The position numbers and the translations under genes are program-made. A stretch of 39,510 nucleotides of DNA from the NCBI GenBank assembly GCA_016840305.1, contig JAEOSP010000338.1:1-39510 (forward strand), read 5' to 3'. Below, in pieces: positions 6,178 through 30,276 of the stretch (within the stretch, counting starts at the first letter, position 1; each line of letters begins with the position of its first letter). The DNA comes from Candidatus Hodarchaeota archaeon (GTDB lineage Archaea; Asgardarchaeota; Heimdallarchaeia; Hodarchaeales; Hodarchaeaceae). The notes beneath the pieces are model-generated. The model was not told where the DNA came from. It ran no database searches and saw nothing but the letters and a program-made list of their open reading frames with translations.

Positions 6178-7275
6178 TTACAAGTCCGCTAAATACCGTC
6201 CCCAAACCCTTAAGACTTGATGTATTCGTTCTTCACGTAAAAGATCGTTACTTTCTTCCCCATCCCCAAACGAGAATTGCATATTTTCAGTTGTTTCACC
6301 TATATATTTATCTAGTAAGGATTCAGCAGAGAGGCGCGAGAGTTTAGTAGTACTTAAATTTAAGATTTCTTCAATAATCAATTCCTTAATTCCAATAGCT
6401 AAATCCTTTATGACCAAATAGCTTGTTTCAAAGAATTTACTCTGAAATTTCCTAGTTAAGAGTAGGTCTAGCATAAAAGATTTATCTAGGGCCATAAAGA
6501 ATTGTCTTCCATAAACAAATCGTAATTTCCTCAAATTTGTAGTGCCAAAAGCAAGAAATTTTGGTCTAGAATTGAATAATGTCGAAAGAAGTCCAATGAT
6601 TGCTGAAAAATATCCCCCAAGCAGAACATCATCGTCAATGTTAAACGAAAAGGGTATATCTCCTCCATCTTGATGAGATATCAGGCACCAGCTAGAGGGA
6701 GAGAAATACATTCCTTCCTCAACCTGTTTTCGCAAGAAATAATGAAATAATATACACTCTTCAAATGAAAGAATACCAAAATTGGATCCTGAGTTACCCA
6801 CAATAATTTGAACTTGATTATTTTCTTTGTAACTAGGGTTAATGTCTAAAATAATATCTTGAAGTTGTTTATGAATTCTGTCCTTTTCAGATTGGGTAGC
6901 TTCTGCAATGCTTGCTGCATAGAGGACAGAAGCCTGTCCTACCAAGACTGCCGTCATAATCTCCTTTATATCATAAGGTATTCCTTCTTTTGCGGATATA
7001 AGCATGAGAGTGATCTCAGGCTCACTTATAACAAAGTAAAAATGATCTTGAAGGGATACTATAAATAATTCGGTTGATTTGTATCCGGAATGTTTTGGTA
7101 AATCAAACGTAATGCTTGCAATCCCTTCTCCGAACAGTTCTTCTCCAAAAGATCCTAATCCTCTTAAAAAATCTGATACAATCCCTTGAAATTCTTGGCT
7201 TGGGTCACCAAAAGTCCATTTAACATCCGTTCCTTCGACAAAGATTGCCCAGTGTTCCTTCTGATTCAATTCCAA
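6178..7275 (-). CDS. Tandem longin/roadblock-like domain protein (Asgard-type)
   Basis: The 365-residue protein has two similar units. Unit 1 (about 8-130) reads as two strands (HWAIFVE, DVKWTFG), a helix, strands (IASITFDL, TELFIVSLQDHFYFVIS) and a long helix. Unit 2 (about 190-300) repeats this order, with WCLISHQDGGDIPFSFNI, the helix after DDDVLLGG, then FLAFGTTNLRKLRFVYGR. This strand-strand-helix-strand order fits longin or roadblock folds, which are greatly expanded in Asgard archaea and in eukaryotes act with small GTPases and vesicle-trafficking complexes. The C-terminal ~60 residues are helical. There is no membrane segment. The domain call is by pattern only; no GTPase gene lies nearby in the window. 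Confidence 0.5.
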   Translation of the reverse strand: MELNQKEHWAIFVEGTDVKWTFGDPSQEFQGIVSDFLRGLGSFGEELFGEGIASITFDLPKHSGYKSTELFIVSLQDHFYFVISEPEITLMLISAKEGIPYDIKEIMTAVLVGQASVLYAASIAEATQSEKDRIHKQLQDIILDINPSYKENNQVQIIVGNSGSNFGILSFEECILFHYFLRKQVEEGMYFSPSSWCLISHQDGGDIPFSFNIDDDVLLGGYFSAIIGLLSTLFNSRPKFLAFGTTNLRKLRFVYGRQFFMALDKSFMLDLLLTRKFQSKFFETSYLVIKDLAIGIKELIIEEILNLSTTKLSRLSAESLLDKYIGETTENMQFSFGDGEESNDLLREERIHQVLRVWGRYLADL

Positions 7276-13816: not shown

Positions 13817-16800
13817 ATGGTAACGAGTGACCAAAAAACTTTACGTTTAGAACTCCCTTCAACCTCTGGTATGGAATGTGAGATTCGAGAAGAAAAGGAT
13901 TCATACATAATTAATTTTTATCAGAATGATAGACAAGTTAATACTTCTTCTATTGCGATTTCTCGTCTTGATCAGGATAGAATGGTTGACCTTTTGAGTG
14001 AGGCTGGAGTAGAATTTTTCAGTTTTTCAGCGATATTTGATGTTGCAGATTTACTCGTAAATACAATAAAAGATGAGTTCCAAGCACTTTCAATAGGAGA
14101 TGAACCAACAGTCAGTAGTGAACCCACAGAAGTTATTGAGAGTCCAGAAGTATCGTTAGAAGAATCGATATCCATTTCAAAAACAAGAGATAGCAAAAAG
14201 TCTTCCCCAAAAAGACGAAAAATTGCTATCCCAAAGGGAGACAAGCTATTAAAGCGATTTAATATGCTTCATTCCAAATCTGGTTATGCAGCAATATATT
14301 TCACCCGTAAGGGAAACTATTCTGTTGTTTTGTCAAAAAAGGATGAAATTGTATCACAAAAAGCTTTTTTAAAAAACGAGATTAATCAGGATGCACTAGT
14401 TGAATTAATAAGTGAATCTGGAATTGATTTCTTATCCTTTTCAGCGATTTATGATTCAGCGGAGCAAATAGAATCGATTATACTGAATCCTGTTGTAGAT
14501 GATGATTCAGTAGTTATCCCTGACATGGCTTCTGTATCAGAGGTAAAATCTGTTGTTGAAAAAGATACTAGCATAGAATCTCAAGATGAAATCTCGCTTG
14601 TTGATTTATCTGATTTAGATGCTTCAGAATATAAAAAATCAGAAGATTTTGATAAATTTATCGCAAAAGTTAAGGAATCTGTCGAAGTTGGTCAACCTTT
14701 ACCTGTTAAAGAAGTTGAGATTGCGCATTCCGATGGCGTCGTATGTATAATTTTACGAAAATCTGACGCTTGGTTTTTACGATTCCGAAACCCTCATGGA
14801 AGATTGTCAAAATCAGCGAAGATAAATCTTGATCAAGACGAGATTGCTCGATTAATTAACCAGGAAATACCTCAAATATCCTTCAGCTATCTTTATGATG
14901 CTTCTGAACTAATATTTCAAACAATTGAACAACTAGCTTTGCGGCCCATTGATCAAATCATAATTAATGTGGCAGTTGGGCATTTCTTAAAAGTAATAGA
15001 GCAATATGAAAAAGAAGATGATTTTAATGCTGCTTCAAAGGTTACTGAAGTACTTCTTAAGAGATTCAGAAGAGAGAAAAATTTTAAAGGAATTTTACGC
15101 TTTGGAAAGAAGTTAATTGAGTCTCTAAAAAAACAGGGAAAGAATTCAAAAGTTATCAAGCTTCAGTCAGATCTAGTGGCTGAATTATTGGAGCTTGACA
15201 TAGACACATCAGTTGAATTTGTGTATGAATCTATAGAAACCTTGGTTGAACAGGAAAAATATTTGAATGCGGCTAATTTATGTGATTTGGTATTAGATCA
15301 TTATTTAGCCGAGAAAATTAGACCAGAGTCATTATCCACAATACTATCTTTAGCAAAGAAGCAAGTTGGTTATTATAAAAAGGCACGTCTACCTGTAGTA
15401 ATGTGGGAAAATGCCTTAAGATATGCCTATTTTGGTATTAAACAGATACGAAAAGCTGATAATCTTCTAGCTGATCAACGAAGTGCTTATCTTGAAGATA
15501 TCATTATGTTAATCGACTCTGCTCTCGAAGTTCAAGAAGAGAAGAAAGCTAATTTCGAAATTATTAGTACACTTGATGAAACTTCTCAATTGTTGAAAGA
15601 GATCAGGGAAAAGGAGAACTATCAGAAATATGCAAATAGACTCATCTTAACATTAGAAACTCAAGGAAAGAAAGAAAAAGCACTGGAAAAAACCCTTGAA
15701 GTTTCAAATTACTTAATGGATTCAGATACGTATGTAAAAGCATGTGAATTCGCCAATCAAGCGATTAAAATTTACTATGAGTTGAATAAAATTGACGATG
15801 CTGTTAATTTTAGCCTAGAAATAGTACAAGGACTCATAAACTTAAAAGAGAGTGATGCTGCAAAGAACTATCTGAAATTTGCAGAAGAATTAGTAACAAA
15901 GGCTTACAAAGATGATGATTCCAGTCGAATTGAAAAACAACTGGCAATGGGTGATTTGTTAGGCAAATTAGGAATGAAAGATAGATCAAAAACGTTCATT
16001 CAAAATGCTCTGCAGACTATTGATGATCCTAAGAAACGTGAAAATATTGTTTTGAAATATGTGGATGATTTATTAGCTAGTCAAGCTGTTTTGACCGCTC
16101 AAGAAATGGTAAACCTTGAACTTTCTCGATTACTTAGTACAAAGAAAACTAAAGACGTTATTAAATTCTGTTGTCAATTTATTGACAAATTAAAAGAATA
16201 CTCTCATAATGACATGGTATTCGAATATATTCGATATATCTCAAATTTAATGGTACAAACTGATGATGCTGATTATGACTTAATCATGAGCTTTGTGAAG
16301 GATCTACTATCATTAAATGAAGTCGATAAGGGAGCAGCTGTTTTAGATCAATTAATTATTCTTCAAACAAAAGAAAATGACTATACAAGAGCAATAGACA
16401 CGATATCGCGATTTATTGAACATCTTTTAGAGAAAACAGAAAGATATGACTTACTCCAGAAATATATTTTCGAAGTAGCAGAAACGTACCGGAAAATGGG
16501 GGATCCTCAAGGATCTGTTGAACAATTAGTTAAGTATCAAAATGAAGTATTAGATCGCTCTGTTGATTTAGCACAGAAAATTACTGATACGATCCTGAAA
16601 GAATATGAACGTGAAGAAAATTATAAGAAAGCAATAGAAGTTGTTTCCAAGATAATTGATAAACAAATGGCTTCAGGTAATTATCAGGATGCGTATATCT
16701 TTAGTGTACAAAATGCTAGGTATATTGAAAGTTCTGGGAGCATCACTGATGTAATTAAATATCTAGGTAAAATGCGAAATCGGTTCTTAGAACATAAACA

Positions 16801-19414
16801 ATTCGAAGGTGCATCTAAAACTACTGATTTAATCTATAGATTTGGAAAAACCCATAATCAAACCAAATTGGCAATTCAATCGCTGAAGGAATATACAAAG
16901 CTGACCTTAAAGCGAGAAGATTATCCTACAGCTATAAAATTCACCTTAAGTGTTGCTGATTTGTTTGAAGAAGAAGATAAACCTGGAAAAGCTCTTGAAT
17001 TTCTTCAAATGGTATTCAATACAACCTTTGAACATGATAAAGAGATTACCATGCAAATCTATCGAAGAATTTTAGAGATTCACAAGGGTAAGGGTGAAAT
17101 AAAGAAAATTATTCAGAAAGTTGTAATCCCTCTTCTGGATAAATATTCGGATGTTTCCCTTTTAAATATGATGAATGAAGTCCTTTCACCACCACTTGAG
17201 GATTTCATTGAATATTCCAAGAATTTTTATTATCGTTTAGTTGAATCATCAACTTTAACTCCAGATGCAACCCAAGGAATATTAGAATTGGTGGCTACAG
17301 TTTATCGGAATGAACTTATTGAATCTGGGGATTCGCTCGTTAACCAATATACGAATAGTTTGCTATTAGCAGGGTTTGTAGCAGAGGCAATAGTATTAAT
17401 GTTAACTATGTTGGAAAAAACAGGAAAGCCTATTAATAAATCTATTGATGAAGCTCTTGATTTCATCACAAAATTAGTGAAAAATTCATATATTAATAAA
17501 GCAAGAGAATTCCTAGACAAGATTATTCAGAAGGTAACGACTGATACTGTTTTAGCGGAAGAAAATAATCAATTGGCGGCTCTTGTAGCGAAGAAATTTG
17601 CTTTCATTGTTGCTGATGAAAATCCAGATCTTGCATCTGAGTATGCCTATCTTGCATCTGATTACCTAAGGGCGTCAAATGATTTTGATGGTGTCGTCAA
17701 AGTATATGAAGAGCTAGCTACTCATTTTACATCATCCAATAGGGTAATTAGATCATTGAAAAGAGGCGCATATATTTGCAAAAAGTTTAAAGCCATAAAA
17801 CATGAGGCTAAATTACTTACATCACTAACAGAGTATATGTTGTCAGTATCTGATAAATCCTCTCAATTGGCTTATCAACAAACTGTTGAGAAGCTCGAAG
17901 AATTAGAGGATCTTGATGTATTATTTTCTAATAGCTGTAAAATCATGAAAAAAGCCGTAACTACAGATAACCTTGATTTAGTATATGATTATCTGGAGTA
18001 CAATAGCAAATTAGCTGCTATGATTAATCAAGCTAAAGAAATGGGGGGAATTCTCACTTTCATGTTAAATCATTATGGTGAACTCAAAAATACTGAAATT
18101 GTTGATTTCGTCAAGAAACTAATGGATGAGCTAACTATTCATCCTAAAAAGTTTAAGAAAGAGTATAAGGAGTTATCTGAGCAGCGAGATCAATTTTTAC
18201 GAACTAAGGTTGAGGAAGAAGGTCTAAAACCAGAAATATCGGAAAAAGAACTACCAAGTTTAGTCGAAACTACAGAAATTATTCCCCCTGCAGTAGAACC
18301 TGTGATCAAAGTTCAATCAGGTATCGAAATGGATAAAGGAGAAGAAGAATTCGTAGATGTTATTAAACAATACGAACCAGAAGCTCCATTGGCTGAACTT
18401 TCTCTCAAACAACCTCCAGACGCAATTCCTGATCTTGGATCTCTTGTAACAAGTGATACAACAGAAACGGAAATTATCCCTGAACCAGAACCAACAATTA
18501 TCAGTAGTGACATATTAGAAGTTCCAAAAAAGAAAGAAGGAGAAAAACTAGCTACCACGTTGAGCGATGATGAGATTACAGGATTATTTGCACAAACTGC
18601 TCCTACTGAACAAACTGAGCAGATTTTCCCTTCCCATGATGAAGAAATCTTTCCAGAAACTCAAGAAATGGTAAAAGAAGGTGTTACTCTTACTAATGGC
18701 GAGATTTCTTCTCTTTTTAGCTCAAAGGACGAACAAATTGTTCCTAGTATAGCACCAACTGAAATAAAACTTCAAGAAGCCTCGGATGAAGATGAATGGG
18801 AAGTTGATGCTTTTGGGCGGTTAATAAAAAAGGCAAAGACTCCCCCGCCTGTGAAAACAGAAGCTAAACCTGCTGTATTATCCAGAAAAGGAGCAATTCT
18901 CAAAAGTCTTTCAGAAACACCTGATTTGTCTGTTCTCGAGTCCAAATTTGAGGAACCTTCTACTGGTCAAATGAAACCCACTCAGCTCAAAGGGCTTCAG
19001 ATTGAACCTGACGAGGAGTTAGAACGTAAAAAGCAATTACAAAACCTTCCCAATATAGAATCTTTAGAAATGGCTTTAGTAGATACTCAAAATGTTGTTG
19101 AACAAAAGAATTCTGGGAGTGCATTTGATAAAATACCAAAAGAGGACACAGGTTTGTTTGATAAAGATTCTTCAACTTCATTCACCTCAATAGTTGATTC
19201 TATTGCAGAAGATGAGTCAACATCCCCCTCAGAAATGTTTGGAATACCCGAGGTTAGTTATGAAGAAATACCTACAGATAGCAAACCTGCAGAATCTGAT
19301 ATCCAACCTCCTGATTTAATAGATTTATTCTCAAATGCCTTATCAGAACTAGGATCAATTTCTGGAGAATCGGGTGAAACTACGAAGGGTAAGAAGAAAA
19401 AATCAAAGAAATAA
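13817..19414 (+). CDS. Giant helical-repeat (TPR-like) protein with three N-terminal repeats and acidic disordered tail
   Basis: 1,865 residues, no known full-length relative. Three related units of about 80 residues lie at 8-86, 148-224 and 298-373, each ending in an (F/L/I)SFSxx(F/Y)D motif (FSFSAIFD, LSFSAIYD, ISFSYLYD) plus a helix; acidic/Ser-rich linkers separate them. About 380-1480 is continuous alpha-helix in pairs typical of TPR-like solenoids (repeated A-x-x-Y-x-x-A-I patterns, for example NYKKAIEVVSKIID). About 1480-1865 is acidic, Pro/Ser/Thr-rich and probably disordered, with short motifs LSDDEITGLFAQ (1582), LTNGEISSLFSS (1625) and DLIDLFSNALSEL (1833), ending GKKKKSKK. No signal peptide or membrane helix, so it is a cytosolic scaffold candidate. 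ATG start. It converges on gcvT with a 5-base gap. Confidence 0.75.
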   Translation: MVTSDQKTLRLELPSTSGMECEIREEKDSYIINFYQNDRQVNTSSIAISRLDQDRMVDLLSEAGVEFFSFSAIFDVADLLVNTIKDEFQALSIGDEPTVSSEPTEVIESPEVSLEESISISKTRDSKKSSPKRRKIAIPKGDKLLKRFNMLHSKSGYAAIYFTRKGNYSVVLSKKDEIVSQKAFLKNEINQDALVELISESGIDFLSFSAIYDSAEQIESIILNPVVDDDSVVIPDMASVSEVKSVVEKDTSIESQDEISLVDLSDLDASEYKKSEDFDKFIAKVKESVEVGQPLPVKEVEIAHSDGVVCIILRKSDAWFLRFRNPHGRLSKSAKINLDQDEIARLINQEIPQISFSYLYDASELIFQTIEQLALRPIDQIIINVAVGHFLKVIEQYEKEDDFNAASKVTEVLLKRFRREKNFKGILRFGKKLIESLKKQGKNSKVIKLQSDLVAELLELDIDTSVEFVYESIETLVEQEKYLNAANLCDLVLDHYLAEKIRPESLSTILSLAKKQVGYYKKARLPVVMWENALRYAYFGIKQIRKADNLLADQRSAYLEDIIMLIDSALEVQEEKKANFEIISTLDETSQLLKEIREKENYQKYANRLILTLETQGKKEKALEKTLEVSNYLMDSDTYVKACEFANQAIKIYYELNKIDDAVNFSLEIVQGLINLKESDAAKNYLKFAEELVTKAYKDDDSSRIEKQLAMGDLLGKLGMKDRSKTFIQNALQTIDDPKKRENIVLKYVDDLLASQAVLTAQEMVNLELSRLLSTKKTKDVIKFCCQFIDKLKEYSHNDMVFEYIRYISNLMVQTDDADYDLIMSFVKDLLSLNEVDKGAAVLDQLIILQTKENDYTRAIDTISRFIEHLLEKTERYDLLQKYIFEVAETYRKMGDPQGSVEQLVKYQNEVLDRSVDLAQKITDTILKEYEREENYKKAIEVVSKIIDKQMASGNYQDAYIFSVQNARYIESSGSITDVIKYLGKMRNRFLEHKQFEGASKTTDLIYRFGKTHNQTKLAIQSLKEYTKLTLKREDYPTAIKFTLSVADLFEEEDKPGKALEFLQMVFNTTFEHDKEITMQIYRRILEIHKGKGEIKKIIQKVVIPLLDKYSDVSLLNMMNEVLSPPLEDFIEYSKNFYYRLVESSTLTPDATQGILELVATVYRNELIESGDSLVNQYTNSLLLAGFVAEAIVLMLTMLEKTGKPINKSIDEALDFITKLVKNSYINKAREFLDKIIQKVTTDTVLAEENNQLAALVAKKFAFIVADENPDLASEYAYLASDYLRASNDFDGVVKVYEELATHFTSSNRVIRSLKRGAYICKKFKAIKHEAKLLTSLTEYMLSVSDKSSQLAYQQTVEKLEELEDLDVLFSNSCKIMKKAVTTDNLDLVYDYLEYNSKLAAMINQAKEMGGILTFMLNHYGELKNTEIVDFVKKLMDELTIHPKKFKKEYKELSEQRDQFLRTKVEEEGLKPEISEKELPSLVETTEIIPPAVEPVIKVQSGIEMDKGEEEFVDVIKQYEPEAPLAELSLKQPPDAIPDLGSLVTSDTTETEIIPEPEPTIISSDILEVPKKKEGEKLATTLSDDEITGLFAQTAPTEQTEQIFPSHDEEIFPETQEMVKEGVTLTNGEISSLFSSKDEQIVPSIAPTEIKLQEASDEDEWEVDAFGRLIKKAKTPPPVKTEAKPAVLSRKGAILKSLSETPDLSVLESKFEEPSTGQMKPTQLKGLQIEPDEELERKKQLQNLPNIESLEMALVDTQNVVEQKNSGSAFDKIPKEDTGLFDKDSSTSFTSIVDSIAEDESTSPSEMFGIPEVSYEEIPTDSKPAESDIQPPDLIDLFSNALSELGSISGESGETTKGKKKKSKK

Positions 19415-26260: not shown

Positions 26261-27166
26261 TTAATTTGGCTTGAGTTTAAGGATCAAATCTGGTAAATCA
26301 TAATATTGCTGTGTATAATCTGCAATCCTTATATTTCTCAACCATATATTAATCTCAGTATTCTCTTCCAACTTGAATGAATGCAGAGATAAGGATCCTG
26401 AGCTAATTGTTTCATGGAAATAATATTGTGCTAATTCAGATTCAATGTGAACGGGTAAACCATCAACTTCTGTCGATAATTCATATTCTACACGAACAAA
26501 CTGACGAAAAGGGAGTTTAAGTTCTATTTTCACTTTGAATGTCTCATTTAAATCAATAAGAATTGGTTCTTTGATGCTTAAGATGATATTTTTCCAAACA
26601 ACTTCATAATTTTCAATTAAAACTGGATCAGTATCTGAAATTTTGATGGGAACACCATACAAATCGTTGGTGAGGTGTTCATGAACAGATTGGAAGTTAA
26701 AGTGTTCTGTAAAATCATAATCTACCGTATAAGGACGGGAAGTGTTAATGTCCACTCGATAGATATTAAAACCTGAAAAATCGGTCTTAATCTTTGTGGG
26801 GTCTAATACTAAACCGAAAGATTTTGGGTGCATCTTTTGGTATGTCAATTGCGTCTCTATATCTGTTCCAGAAAAAAATAATCCCAACCCTGGATGCGTA
26901 TGAGCCCATCCTACGATCACTTCCCCTTCATCAATCCTCTCAAACGAAATTAAGGAAAAAACTTGCTCATAATCAGTGATATCAACAAATACAGCCGAAC
27001 CAGAGCTTATTGGAACAATTTCCGTTACAATAATATCATCATCTGATATTCGACCCAATATTAATCCAATGCATTCTCTCCAATTTCGTGAACTACCAAG
27101 AGGATTGGCATTTTCCAACGCAAATTGAAGAAATTTCTCGTACACATCTCTTGGGATTTCTATCAT
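26261..27166 (-). CDS. Rpn11-like JAMM (MPN+) metalloprotease, candidate deubiquitinase
   Basis: The N-terminal ~150 residues form an MPN domain with an intact JAMM site: E31 (RECIGLILG), then GWAHTHPGLGLFFSGTDIET giving H89, H91, S99 and D102 in the H-x-H-P-x6-S-x2-D spacing. VGWAHTHPGLGLFFSGTDI followed by a DPTK segment is very close to eukaryotic Rpn11/AMSH-type sequences (VGW-HSHPG-G-xxSG-DI). JAMM enzymes hydrolyse ubiquitin-like isopeptide bonds; Asgard archaea have ubiquitin systems, but no ubiquitin, E1 or E2 gene is in the window. Residues ~155-301 are a second, beta-rich domain of unknown family. Last gene of a tight leftward cluster, 9 bases after trmI. ATG start. Confidence 0.85.
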   Translation of the reverse strand: MIEIPRDVYEKFLQFALENANPLGSSRNWRECIGLILGRISDDDIIVTEIVPISSGSAVFVDITDYEQVFSLISFERIDEGEVIVGWAHTHPGLGLFFSGTDIETQLTYQKMHPKSFGLVLDPTKIKTDFSGFNIYRVDINTSRPYTVDYDFTEHFNFQSVHEHLTNDLYGVPIKISDTDPVLIENYEVVWKNIILSIKEPILIDLNETFKVKIELKLPFRQFVRVEYELSTEVDGLPVHIESELAQYYFHETISSGSLSLHSFKLEENTEINIWLRNIRIADYTQQYYDLPDLILKLKPN

Positions 27167-27175
27167 TTAGGCACC

Positions 27176-27967
27176 TTAGGGTTCCGTGTTGATTTTTATC
27201 GCATGTATAAGAATTCCAGAGTAAACTATTGATCTGAATGATGGTCGCATTATATGTTTTTTTGGATTCACAGCGAAGTTCCTACGTGTTATTTCAAATG
27301 TTTCCTGATGTGTAAGATTTGGATTCAAGTCTATCCTGTTTACGGTATTTTCTACTTGACCCCAATTTGGAACAAAACAAACTAGATGTCCTCCCCCCGT
27401 TAAAACTTGAGATATATTATCTATTGCATTGAATGGATCAGAGAAATCGAGAAAAAAAGCATCTAAAGCAGGAACATCAATTTTTTCTCGGACATCTTGA
27501 ACTGAGAAAGTAACATTACTAAGTCCTGTTAATTCTAGATTTTTCTCTGCGTTCTTTAAATGACCTTCATTTATATCAAAAGAGTAAACATGCCCATGAG
27601 GTGATGTAGACCAAGCAAGAAATGTCGTTAAGGCTCCTGATCCTGTACCTGCTTCACCAACCTTCATTCCATTTCCAATACCAGCTGTGTCGCAAGCTAT
27701 TGCACAATCATCGGCATATAGTATCTGAGTTTTAAGTTTAAAGGCTTTAAGAAAATCTCTGGGCGAAGGTTTTAAAATGGTAACCTTTCCATGTGATAAA
27801 TCTATAATGTCCCCGTAGTTTTTTCCCAGTAGAGTGTTGTGAAGGATTTGCCCTAAATGGGTTGATTTCTCTTTATCAGTCTTGAGAGTAAATATCCATG
27901 ATTTTGGATTGTGTACGTTCAATTCAACTATGCGAACAAGGTTCCCAATTTCTAGCATTAAATGCAC
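27176..27967 (-). CDS. trmI: tRNA (adenine-N1)-methyltransferase, TrmI/Gcd14 family
   Basis: The 263-residue protein has the TrmI layout: a small N-terminal beta domain ending GDIIDLSHGKVTILKPSP, the QILYADDCAIA segment (family QxIYxKD), SAM motif KVGEAGTGSGALTTFLA, acidic VYSFDINEGH, and LDAFFLDFSDPFNAI (family DAVxLDLPxPW). It makes m1A at position 57/58 of tRNA, acting as a tetramer in archaea. The catalytic aspartate is in LDFSDP, where family members usually have LDLPDP. ATG start. Spacing is 3 bases from the preceding gene and 9 to the following JAMM gene, indicating one transcript. Confidence 0.9.
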   Translation of the reverse strand: MHLMLEIGNLVRIVELNVHNPKSWIFTLKTDKEKSTHLGQILHNTLLGKNYGDIIDLSHGKVTILKPSPRDFLKAFKLKTQILYADDCAIACDTAGIGNGMKVGEAGTGSGALTTFLAWSTSPHGHVYSFDINEGHLKNAEKNLELTGLSNVTFSVQDVREKIDVPALDAFFLDFSDPFNAIDNISQVLTGGGHLVCFVPNWGQVENTVNRIDLNPNLTHQETFEITRRNFAVNPKKHIMRPSFRSIVYSGILIHAIKINTEP

Positions 27968-27970
27968 TTC

Positions 27971-28357
27971 TTACGACATACTACTGAAGATATGTGGAGG
28001 GGTTTTCAAATTGATGATTGGGATAAAGCGAACAAGACCTGTCTGGGTATTCTCTAAATCTTTTTCCTTGAGAAAACGGAGAAAAGTAATTTGCTGCTCT
28101 GCTCGTTGAAGATCATATCTAACTAATGACTGTCCCTCAGCTTCTAGTGATGTTTTAGATGTTATGTAAAACATAACAGGTAATCCTTTGTAATCAAAAT
28201 AACCGGGAAAAATTGTAAAGGAGCCATAATAGAATAGTTCAGAATCACCTGTCCACTTAAATACAGTAGAGGGACGATCAGGACTTGAACTTGAAATAAG
28301 ACGAATTAGATCAATGAAACTGGATAATTCAATACCATAGGTGTTTGGAAGTTCCAT
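27971..28357 (-). CDS. Small soluble protein of unknown function in the longin/JAMM cluster
   Basis: The 128 residues have no signal or membrane segment. The centre is beta-rich (DSELFYYGSFTIFPGYFDYK, LPVMFYITSKTS), followed by a helix (AEQQITFLRFLKEKDLE) and a strand (GLVRFIPIINL). I do not recognise the family. It sits between the longin-gelsolin gene (15 bases upstream) and trmI (3 bases downstream), so it is co-transcribed and could be a partner of either. ATG start. Confidence 0.6.
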   Translation of the reverse strand: MELPNTYGIELSSFIDLIRLISSSSPDRPSTVFKWTGDSELFYYGSFTIFPGYFDYKGLPVMFYITSKTSLEAEGQSLVRYDLQRAEQQITFLRFLKEKDLENTQTGLVRFIPIINLKTPPHIFSSMS

Positions 28358-28372
28358 AATATGAAATCTCGG

Positions 28373-29113
28373 TTATAGATTTTTCTTGAGACCAAAAAAG
28401 TTCAATAATTGCTCCGCTTCTTCTTCTGAGTCGACTATGCGCTTATTAAAACCCCTTCTATATGTTTTTTCGTTTAAAGAGTCTATTAATATGCTTACAG
28501 CTCGTTTACGAACAGGTGAAAGATGTTGATCGTACATAACAAAGAGGGTTTTCTTTTCTAAATCTGCTACGACATAAGCATCAGAGGGAATGAAAAGGTT
28601 GTCAAGATGCTCTATTAGTTTATCTTTGGCAACGCGATAAATTCTTATAGGATTTGTCGTCATCAAATCCGTTAGACGTTTATCAATTACTATCATTTTT
28701 TCTGGAATAAAATCTTCTTCATTTTTAAAGAACTCTGGAACAGAATTTGTTAAGTAAGAAAGTATAAGTCCATGTGCATGTGATACAATCCGTTTTAATC
28801 TTTTTCTGAAGATAACGCTAATTACAGATGGGCGTTTCTTTAATCGTGGATCAGTGGTAAATGTTGAATCAACAAAGAATGCATATGCCAAGCATAGAAA
28901 TTCCTCATTTTCTGGTACTGGAAGAGGACCGTAAATTTCACCGCTCGTCAAATTCATTGTTTCACCAATGAGAGTCATGATACGAATGGATAAATTGAAC
29001 GCTTGATCTTCTGTTACTTGTTTTTCTGCTGAATTAAAAATCACCTGAGGTCCAGCATCAGTGAAAATACTGATTATGACTCCAACAACTGGACTCTCAG
29101 TTTTCTGATTCAT
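28373..29113 (-). CDS. Longin-like domain fused to a gelsolin-like domain
   Basis: The 246-residue protein has two parts. Residues ~8-130 look like a longin domain: VVGVIISIFTDAGPQVIFNS (strands 1-2), a helix with LSIRIMTLIGE, YGPLPVPE, FLCLAYAFFVDST, then RPSVISVIFRKRLKRIV and a helix. Similar 'GPQVIYN ... GPLPVPE ... RPSVIS' segments occur in Asgard longin proteins. Residues ~155-242 fit a gelsolin repeat: IRIYRVAKDKLIE, IPSDAYVVADLEKKTLFVMY (the 'DvYiLD-x-iyvW' core), SPVRKRAVSILID helix, and RIVDSEEEAEQLLNFFG (the 'v-eg-E-xxF-xxF' end). Gelsolin repeats bind actin in eukaryotes and Asgards. First gene of the leftward cluster; 83 bases downstream of egsA. The fusion call is by pattern only. 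Confidence 0.65.
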   Translation of the reverse strand: MNQKTESPVVGVIISIFTDAGPQVIFNSAEKQVTEDQAFNLSIRIMTLIGETMNLTSGEIYGPLPVPENEEFLCLAYAFFVDSTFTTDPRLKKRPSVISVIFRKRLKRIVSHAHGLILSYLTNSVPEFFKNEEDFIPEKMIVIDKRLTDLMTTNPIRIYRVAKDKLIEHLDNLFIPSDAYVVADLEKKTLFVMYDQHLSPVRKRAVSILIDSLNEKTYRRGFNKRIVDSEEEAEQLLNFFGLKKNL

Positions 29114-29196: not shown

Positions 29197-30276
29197 TCAA
29201 TTAATAACATTGGTCTGGTGAGCTAGGTTTTTTGCAGCTTTCATTGATAAACCTGTTTCACCAAGAACGGTATACATCGTGTTTACCTTATGGGCTTTTT
29301 GTAATGCATTGAATACAGCTATGGAATCAAGATCATCCTCCAAATCATCTATGCTCGTTGGACAACCCACACTTTCTAATATCGCTCTAATTTTTTTGAA
29401 ATCTTGACCTTGCAATTTAGCCATTAAAATTGTTCCTAAAGCTACTCTCTCACCATGGAGAATATTTGAATTTGGAGCCTCTGCATGTAAAGCTTGAGAA
29501 AACATGTGCTCTGAGCCGTAACCGACTCTCATATCATTTGATGTTCCCATAAGAACTCCTGCAATTAGAAGGGCCTTTAAAACAACCTTAATAGCATGTT
29601 CCTGATCTAAAGTTGCTTCTGAAACTTGATTTTGGAATAGAGAGTCTGCATTTTGTAAAACTCCTCCTACAAATCTTGAATACTTGACTGATTTAATTCG
29701 CCAAGCATATTTCCAGTCCCAAATAGCAGTCATTTTCCCTACTGTATCGCCTACACCTGCAGCTAAATATCGGAGCAAATCTGGGTGTTGTTTAATCTTG
29801 TCTATATCAGCTAATATCGCAAAAGGAGGACGGGTTTCTCCTATAAATTTCTCTGTTGGATCATTTAGAAAAATAAATTGTGAGGCTATTCCATCATGCG
29901 GGGTAGCCGTTGGGATAGAGATTAATTCTACTCTTCGGTCTGATCTAAGTGTACAATACTTGCCAACATCAATAATTTTTCCCCCACCAGCACTTATGAT
30001 TATATTAGGATTGAATTTGTCAACTTCCTCTTTATAGGAAATTGCGGCTTCCAATGAGGAGTTTTTGATTGTTAAAGTTTCAAAATCTATGTTATTATTT
30101 TCTATGATAGTATGAATCTCTTCCCCAACAATTTGACGTGTTTTCTTTCCAGAAAGAACCATAATTTTCGGTTTAAATCTTAAGGACTTAATTACCTGTG
30201 GAATTTTTCCAAGAATTGAATTTCCGATTATTATCGATCTTGGTACAACCGATTCTAGAATCTCTGATCCTGGCAT
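29197..30276 (-). CDS. egsA: sn-Glycerol-1-phosphate dehydrogenase
   Basis: The 359-residue protein reduces dihydroxyacetone phosphate to sn-glycerol-1-phosphate, the backbone of archaeal ether lipids. ISAGGGKIIDVGKYC binds NAD(P); ISIPTATPHDGIAS is the family substrate loop; zinc ligands are the aspartate in AAGVGDTVGKMTAIWDW, the histidine in GSEHMFSQAL and the histidine in ILHGERVALGT. Length is normal for the archaeal family (about 350). ATG start with AAGGAT upstream and a clean TATA box about 50 bases upstream. It is the first gene of the leftward block ending at the JAMM gene and may drive it. Confidence 0.95.
   Translation of the reverse strand: MPGSEILESVVPRSIIIGNSILGKIPQVIKSLRFKPKIMVLSGKKTRQIVGEEIHTIIENNNIDFETLTIKNSSLEAAISYKEEVDKFNPNIIISAGGGKIIDVGKYCTLRSDRRVELISIPTATPHDGIASQFIFLNDPTEKFIGETRPPFAILADIDKIKQHPDLLRYLAAGVGDTVGKMTAIWDWKYAWRIKSVKYSRFVGGVLQNADSLFQNQVSEATLDQEHAIKVVLKALLIAGVLMGTSNDMRVGYGSEHMFSQALHAEAPNSNILHGERVALGTILMAKLQGQDFKKIRAILESVGCPTSIDDLEDDLDSIAVFNALQKAHKVNTMYTVLGETGLSMKAAKNLAHQTNVIN

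Follow-up and report, generated by a model that had tools for sequence, protein, structure and literature searches.

The window described here is a 39,510-nucleotide stretch of DNA, contig JAEOSP010000338.1 of the Candidatus Hodarchaeota archaeon assembly GCA_016840305.1. Its interval 28373-29113 is occupied by a single minus-strand open reading frame (ORF), 246 codons long, and the plus strand there is closed by many stops. This ORF is real and conserved. We refer to its product as LG, for longin-gelsolin, after the two domains that appear to be joined in it. The features of the gene are as follows.

28373..29113, minus strand: LG protein, 246 residues, delimited by the ORF, its homologues and a structure model
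28655..29089, minus strand: predicted longin domain, residues 9-153
28376..28654, minus strand: predicted gelsolin-fold domain, residues 154-246
28832..28852, minus strand: highly conserved loop D-x-R-x-x-x-R of the longin, residues 88-94, between strands 69-82 and 93-103

Protein searches with LG returned 51 homologues at E<=0.01. The named sources are Hodarchaeales, Hodarchaeota and Heimdall-type metagenome-assembled genomes (MAGs), with some entries labelled Promethearchaeota and one Thorarchaeota; the closest named match is from Candidatus Hodarchaeales, at 92% identity. Three profiles were built from such sequences. Profile A1 covers the window clade (the window's protein and 50 others at 49-96% identity to it, the fragment P0052 being dropped) and retrieved 55 homologues at E<=0.1. 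The wider profile A2, of 22 rows, retrieved 87 at E<=0.001, and profile A4 covers the Heimdall clade, with P0090 dropped. A larger alignment of 162 rows combines 86 database proteins with 76 locus ORFs, some of them near-duplicates, and leaves out six proteins outside 225-299 residues and one locus ORF broken by Ns (L052).

The family is spread more widely than the first-pass annotation of this DNA had thought. The search took in 227 genomes from across the phylum. Of the 58 that belong to the same class as the reference Hodarchaeota genome, 57 gave an LG profile match at E<=1e-5; of the 169 from outside that class, six did. Among the matches listed, 50 of the 58 class genomes have a stop-free match over the full span (from profile position 15 or lower to 235 or higher, of 249), and a further two (G029 and G045) have a full-span match interrupted by one in-frame stop. 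Outside the class the matches listed came from G179 and G084, neither covering both domains. LG relatives were not found in the viral contigs searched. The window's LG is a Hodarchaeal member of a family that extends across one Asgard class, the Heimdallarchaeia.

The first-pass annotation had read the N-terminal half as a longin and the C-terminal part as a gelsolin repeat, and had proposed structure prediction of both halves as a check; both readings held up and neither half was contradicted. Two AlphaFold models, made from separate alignments for the window's protein and for a 25%-identical Heimdallarchaeum homologue, predict a longin and, C-terminal to it, a gelsolin repeat. The N-terminal half has the b-b-a-b-b-b-a-a topology and matches solved longins, its best eukaryotic fold matches being the longin-domain GTPase-activating protein (GAP) complexes of Rag and Arf. 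For the C-terminal part, the best matches of both models are gelsolin-family domains, aligned across the whole domain, and Foldseek also lists Sec23 chains with a low TM-score. The module that follows the longin is predicted to be gelsolin-fold in both models, rather than the DENN-type or C-lobe module. Curated Pfam longin models listed no match at E<=1 for the 51 and 22 LG members; divergent longins do escape such models.

The C-terminal domain also resembles gelsolins in sequence beyond the controls, although remotely. When profile A2 was compared with 177,635 distinct PDB sequences, the sole match at E<=10 was a Thorarchaeal gelsolin domain (7c2f_B, E 0.13), in which positions 157-246 align with 4-93 of 94, i.e. 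the whole domain. A C-terminal profile from the 162 rows was then compared by hhalign with four single Asgard gelsolins, giving probabilities of 91, 79, 14 and 0.2% (scores 34.3, 29.2, 19.8 and 9.6). Three of these exceed the maximum of 16.8 reached by 250 unrelated pieces of 100 residues (median 9.7), and the four gelsolins aligned together gave 80%. The second-best of them (L040) exceeds the Pfam gelsolin cut-off. An earlier and smaller comparison with a wide alignment was weak, at 5.6%, yet exceeded 200 column shuffles (17.8 versus 9.0). Taken with the models, these results suggest that a longin and a gelsolin-like domain are joined in one protein of 246 residues.

The closest gelsolin relatives that we found for this domain are single-repeat Asgard proteins at three loci (L042:781-1740, minus strand; L041:916-1773, minus strand; L040:1414-1743, plus strand). 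In our alignment they keep the WxG motif and have a basic VRKR, VRRK or VRSR at the expected position of the calcium glutamate.

From a fold related to gelsolin, the first-pass annotation had proposed a link to actin and the cytoskeleton. This step is unsupported, because none of the 162 rows has the WxG signature, and in 143 of them Lys or Arg stands at the type II calcium-ligand position (aligned to K203 in the long helix, the column being set by eye with the gelsolins of the Hodarchaeota genome G001). The Asgard gelsolin literature treats WxG and these calcium residues as signatures (PMC9433394). Nor was an actin or profilin gene recognised beside LG in a partial Pfam scan of its neighbours. 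What is strongly conserved lies in the longin: D88 is kept in 161 of the 162 rows, R90 in 158 and R94 in 151, which makes this loop a candidate GTPase-contact or arginine site.

Which genes, then, accompany LG? We examined 76 loci, one from each of 52 class genomes and 24 further ones chosen from among the matches listed, in which profile A2 identified 77 LG ORFs of at least 230 residues. Directly adjacent genes were assigned by means of hidden Markov models built from the GTPases of the same loci, and the LG ORFs were placed on a quick FastTree tree with a midpoint root, its branches taken without support values. A small GTPase gene is the immediate neighbour of 41 LG ORFs and is co-directional in 35. 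These cases are concentrated on the tree: the GTPase adjoins in 29 of 29 members of the clade formed by the 256-residue (Heimdallarchaeaceae) and 267-residue proteins, in five of five of a Hodarchaeal 268-residue group, in six of eight of a group of about 345 residues, where it is convergent, and in one of one at L133. Eight genomes of 2.8-4.9 Mb contain 23-59 Arf-profile matches each, so that at about one gene per kb chance adjacency would be expected in roughly 1-3% of cases.

Not every member of this set need have the second domain, and a C-terminal profile was therefore trained on the 145 of the 162 rows that remain without the Hodarchaeal paralogue groups. It matches 71 of the 77 LG ORFs at E<=1e-3, the best non-LG ORF scoring E 0.013, and a GTPase adjoins 39 of these 71. 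We had considered that the paralogues share the longin half alone; this idea was mostly dropped, since 13 of the 17 held-out paralogues match the profile (11 of them at E<=1e-3, the other two with E-values of 0.0024 and 0.0051). L005, L128, L132 and L133 do not match it. The GTPase neighbour of L133 counts for a longin relative and not for a shown LG, because the C-terminus there is unmatched; the GTPase link is therefore supported by three branches.

The neighbourhoods of these branches are regular. In the 256/267-residue clade a GTPase gene that we call B lies directly upstream of LG in 27 loci, and a trio of GTPase A, GTPase B and LG occurs in 26, with gaps of -4 to 149 nt between A and B and of -8 to 171 nt between B and LG. 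The genes flanking the trio differ between the 256- and 267-residue subclades. All 25 GTPase A sequences contain a P-loop, DLGGH and an NKxD-type motif. Of 28 GTPase B sequences, 27 have the P-loop, 25 have an NKxD-type motif and none has DxGG. The best Hodarchaeal match to the A/B pair lies at G001:C199. The Hodarchaeal 268-residue loci have, on one strand, the order Rag, a protein of about 314 residues, LG and Rag; the 314-residue protein, scanned in one genome, matches Gtr1_RagA just above the cut-off.

Two further arrangements were seen among the loci. In another LG subfamily (L015:2346-2939 and L018:2326-2943) the next gene encodes a longin/roadblock-like protein rather than a GTPase; the matches are all under the cut-off (Fuz_longin_1 at E 1.2e-4 for L015; Fuz_longin_1 at 0.034 and Robl_LC7 at 0.042 for L018). 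At ten other loci from nine class genomes (L063-L072, the first two in the Hodarchaeota genome G001) there is a protein of about 310 residues with a C-terminal longin related to that of LG. In nine of the ten a gelsolin gene follows directly on the same strand, and in nine the longin protein is preceded by a large protein, part of which is repetitive and probably extracellular. A Pfam scan of two of the nine gelsolins recognised a pair of gelsolin repeats in each (1.6e-22 and 3.4e-19). These loci are an operon-level link between longin and gelsolin.

At the window's own locus LG belongs to a co-directional run in the order Fe-ADH, LG, 128-residue protein, TrmI and JAMM. The genes that accompany LG are listed here.

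29197..30276, minus strand: Fe-ADH family gene, upstream neighbour of LG (Pfam Fe-ADH_2; synteny in the window's subfamily), which we take to be glycerol-1-phosphate dehydrogenase-like
27971..28357, minus strand: 128-residue protein, downstream neighbour starting 15 nt after LG (no Pfam match; directly after LG in seven of eight related loci)
27176..27967, minus strand: tRNA methyltransferase of the GCD14/TrmI family (Pfam GCD14, 2.4e-27; synteny)
26261..27166, minus strand: JAB/MPN (JAMM-type) protein at the end of the run (Pfam JAB, 3.6e-13; synteny)

The five-gene run is complete in seven of the eight related loci (L001, L075, L076, L077, L080, L081 and L083). The eighth, L052, retains Fe-ADH alone of the run. 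The window's gene order at LG recurs in a Hodarchaeota MAG. No GTPase was seen by eye in the window's ORF list, part of which was also scanned. Some other proteins of the window may be of interest. The JAB/MPN protein is 301 residues long, with no type assigned to its C-terminal half. The 365-residue protein at 6178-7275 (minus strand) appears by eye to consist of two longin/roadblock-like halves, Pfam giving only a sub-threshold LANC_like match. The 1865-residue protein at 13817-19414 (plus strand) appears by eye to carry three diverged copies of an N-terminal unit of about 70 residues, long helical repeats and a low-complexity tail.

On balance we think that LG is probably a regulator of the longin type that acts on Rag/Arf-like GTPases and has a gelsolin-fold domain as its scaffold. 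Its longin, of the type found in NPRL2, FLCN/Lst4 and C9orf72-SMCR8, would bind Rag/Arf-type GTPases and control their nucleotide state, perhaps through the conserved D88-R90-R94 loop. In two LG subfamilies the partner would be a pair of GTPases that recalls the Rag heterodimer, the A member having the P-loop, DLGGH and NKxD-type motifs and the B member being without DxGG. Since the gelsolin-fold domain has neither the WxG signature nor the calcium ligand that would be expected, it would most likely offer a surface for binding or scaffolding, as in Sec23/Sec24, and not be a calcium-regulated actin-severing unit. Sec23/Sec24 are a precedent for a gelsolin-like domain that can serve to bind proteins within a coat linked to a GTPase (PMC8016994 and PMC3778437). 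We consider it more likely that LG belongs to an old GTPase switch than that it cuts actin, because many of its relatives adjoin genes for Rag/Arf-type small GTPases. We also put forward, with considerable doubt, a bolder proposal: that LG with GTPases A and B forms an archaeal Rag/Sar1-like switch of one motif-complete and one motif-poor GTPase, kept across the class, whose regulator fuses two folds that eukaryotes use apart on Rag/Arf-family GTPases (the longin in GATOR1/FLCN, the gelsolin-like domain in Sec23).

Several results weigh against this explanation. For the gelsolin half, no PDB gelsolin was retrieved by profile A1 or by profile A4, the latter returning only noise (ribosomal eS1 at E 0.055), and the window's protein alone gave nothing convincing there. 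Pfam scans of LG members gave sub-threshold noise only. The hhalign result is uneven, with two single gelsolins at 14% and 0.2%, the latter not above the null median, and with 25% for a pool of 21 gelsolin domains; L042, the gelsolin that scored best, falls just short of the Pfam gelsolin cut-off (19.3 versus 21 bits), and the C-terminus of the window clade alone gave 0.6%. One could argue from such weak or nil single-clade signals, and from the lack of a Pfam match, that the domain is unrelated to gelsolin and that AlphaFold built a common alpha/beta arrangement which aligns by chance. We consider this very improbable: the two models come from separate alignments and agree on gelsolin-family domains over the whole domain, and two sequence-only tests favour gelsolins. 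For the GTPase half, 36 of the 77 LG ORFs are without an adjoining GTPase, the rest of the tree having none in 26 and the window's own subfamily none in eight loci, and the counts are of sequences with shared descent, not of independent events. The membrane/GTPase link drawn by the first-pass annotation therefore has the gene neighbourhoods of other subfamilies behind it and applies to the window's protein by homology only, since none of its eight subfamily loci adjoins a GTPase gene. Has LG of this subfamily left GTPase signalling, to serve the conserved run instead, e.g. as a structural partner of the 128-residue protein? The constancy of the run speaks for this, but housekeeping neighbours are often uninformative on function, and the D88-R90-R94 loop is conserved here as elsewhere, which suggests a retained partner; we regard the idea as unlikely.

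The reading as an actin linker, in which the gelsolin domain would bind Asgard actin as the single-domain Thor ProGel does and the longin would tie it to a GTPase or membrane, we likewise think improbable, given the missing WxG, the basic calcium-ligand position and the lack of a recognised actin or profilin neighbour. A more specific form of regulation would be that LG is a GAP for the A/B pair or for Rag-like GTPases and that R90 or R94 supplies the arginine finger, in the manner of NPRL2, FLCN and SMCR8. The fold matches to GAP complexes and the near-invariance of both arginines, in a loop between two strands, are consistent with it. There are precedents: SMCR8 acts on ARF1 with Arg147 of its longin domain as the finger (PMC8213707), and Nprl2 Arg78/Npr2 Arg84 lies in a longin-containing lobe (PMC9646525). 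Exchange or recruitment would serve equally as a mode of regulation, though. In GTPase A, furthermore, a His occupies the place of the Gln found in the DxGGQ of most Arf/Rag GTPases. Members of the known longin GAP complexes act as longin-DENN heterodimers, whereas the second domain of LG is predicted to be gelsolin-fold. We treat this form as a tentative option with the odds against it. The interpretation of the first-pass annotation is thus partly supported, and we would turn it from an actin linker towards a regulator of Rag/Arf-like GTPases; the GTPase link is one of gene context in three branches, and for the window's protein of homology only.

The first-pass annotation knew of no described protein with the longin-gelsolin pairing, and the full-text literature, in the extracts it offered, pointed to none; supplements, subscription papers and preprints lay outside its scope. 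Longin and gelsolin domains are named apart, not fused, in the extracts from PMC4917890, PMC9834061, PMC11291895, PMC9648965 and PMC7949163. The fusions given in PMC10933270 are those of longin or roadblock with GTPases and of longin with TRAPPC3. Reported Asgard homologues of Sec23/Sec24 are mentioned in a passage of PMC9648965 and may or may not include LG-type proteins. According to PMC10933270, small GTPase genes in the Lokiarchaeon MK-D1 are generally outside the operons of roadblock, longin and TRAPPC3 genes, which makes it hard to pair GTPases with regulators there. The LG trios and quartets are ready-made candidate pairs of this kind. They bear on how Rag/Arf GTPase control originated before eukaryotes. 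A recent analysis places Hodarchaeales as sister to eukaryotes (PMC10307638). The class that would have kept the proposed Rag/Sar1-like switch is the archaeal one in which eukaryotes are believed to have originated. LG also cautions that not all gelsolin folds in Asgard archaea should be taken for actin regulators.

How does LG compare with known systems? The Lokiarchaeal roadblock-longin protein (PDB 8yqg; 15% and 13% identity) has, by its entry title, a longin joined to roadblock and not to gelsolin. GATOR1 NPRL2/NPRL3, FLCN-FNIP/Lst4-Lst7 and C9orf72-SMCR8 have a DENN-type second domain where LG has a predicted gelsolin fold. Thorarchaeal ProGel and other Asgard gelsolins (7c2f, 7c2g, 7whf and 7whg) share with LG the one-repeat gelsolin fold and a remote sequence similarity, but LG is without WxG and the type II calcium glutamate and has the domain fused behind a longin. 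Sec23/Sec24 of COPII are like LG in having a gelsolin-like domain, and they work with an Arf-family GTPase, Sar1, which carries DLGGH as GTPase A does. Sec23 has further domains and no longin, and there is no evidence of shared descent between the two architectures.
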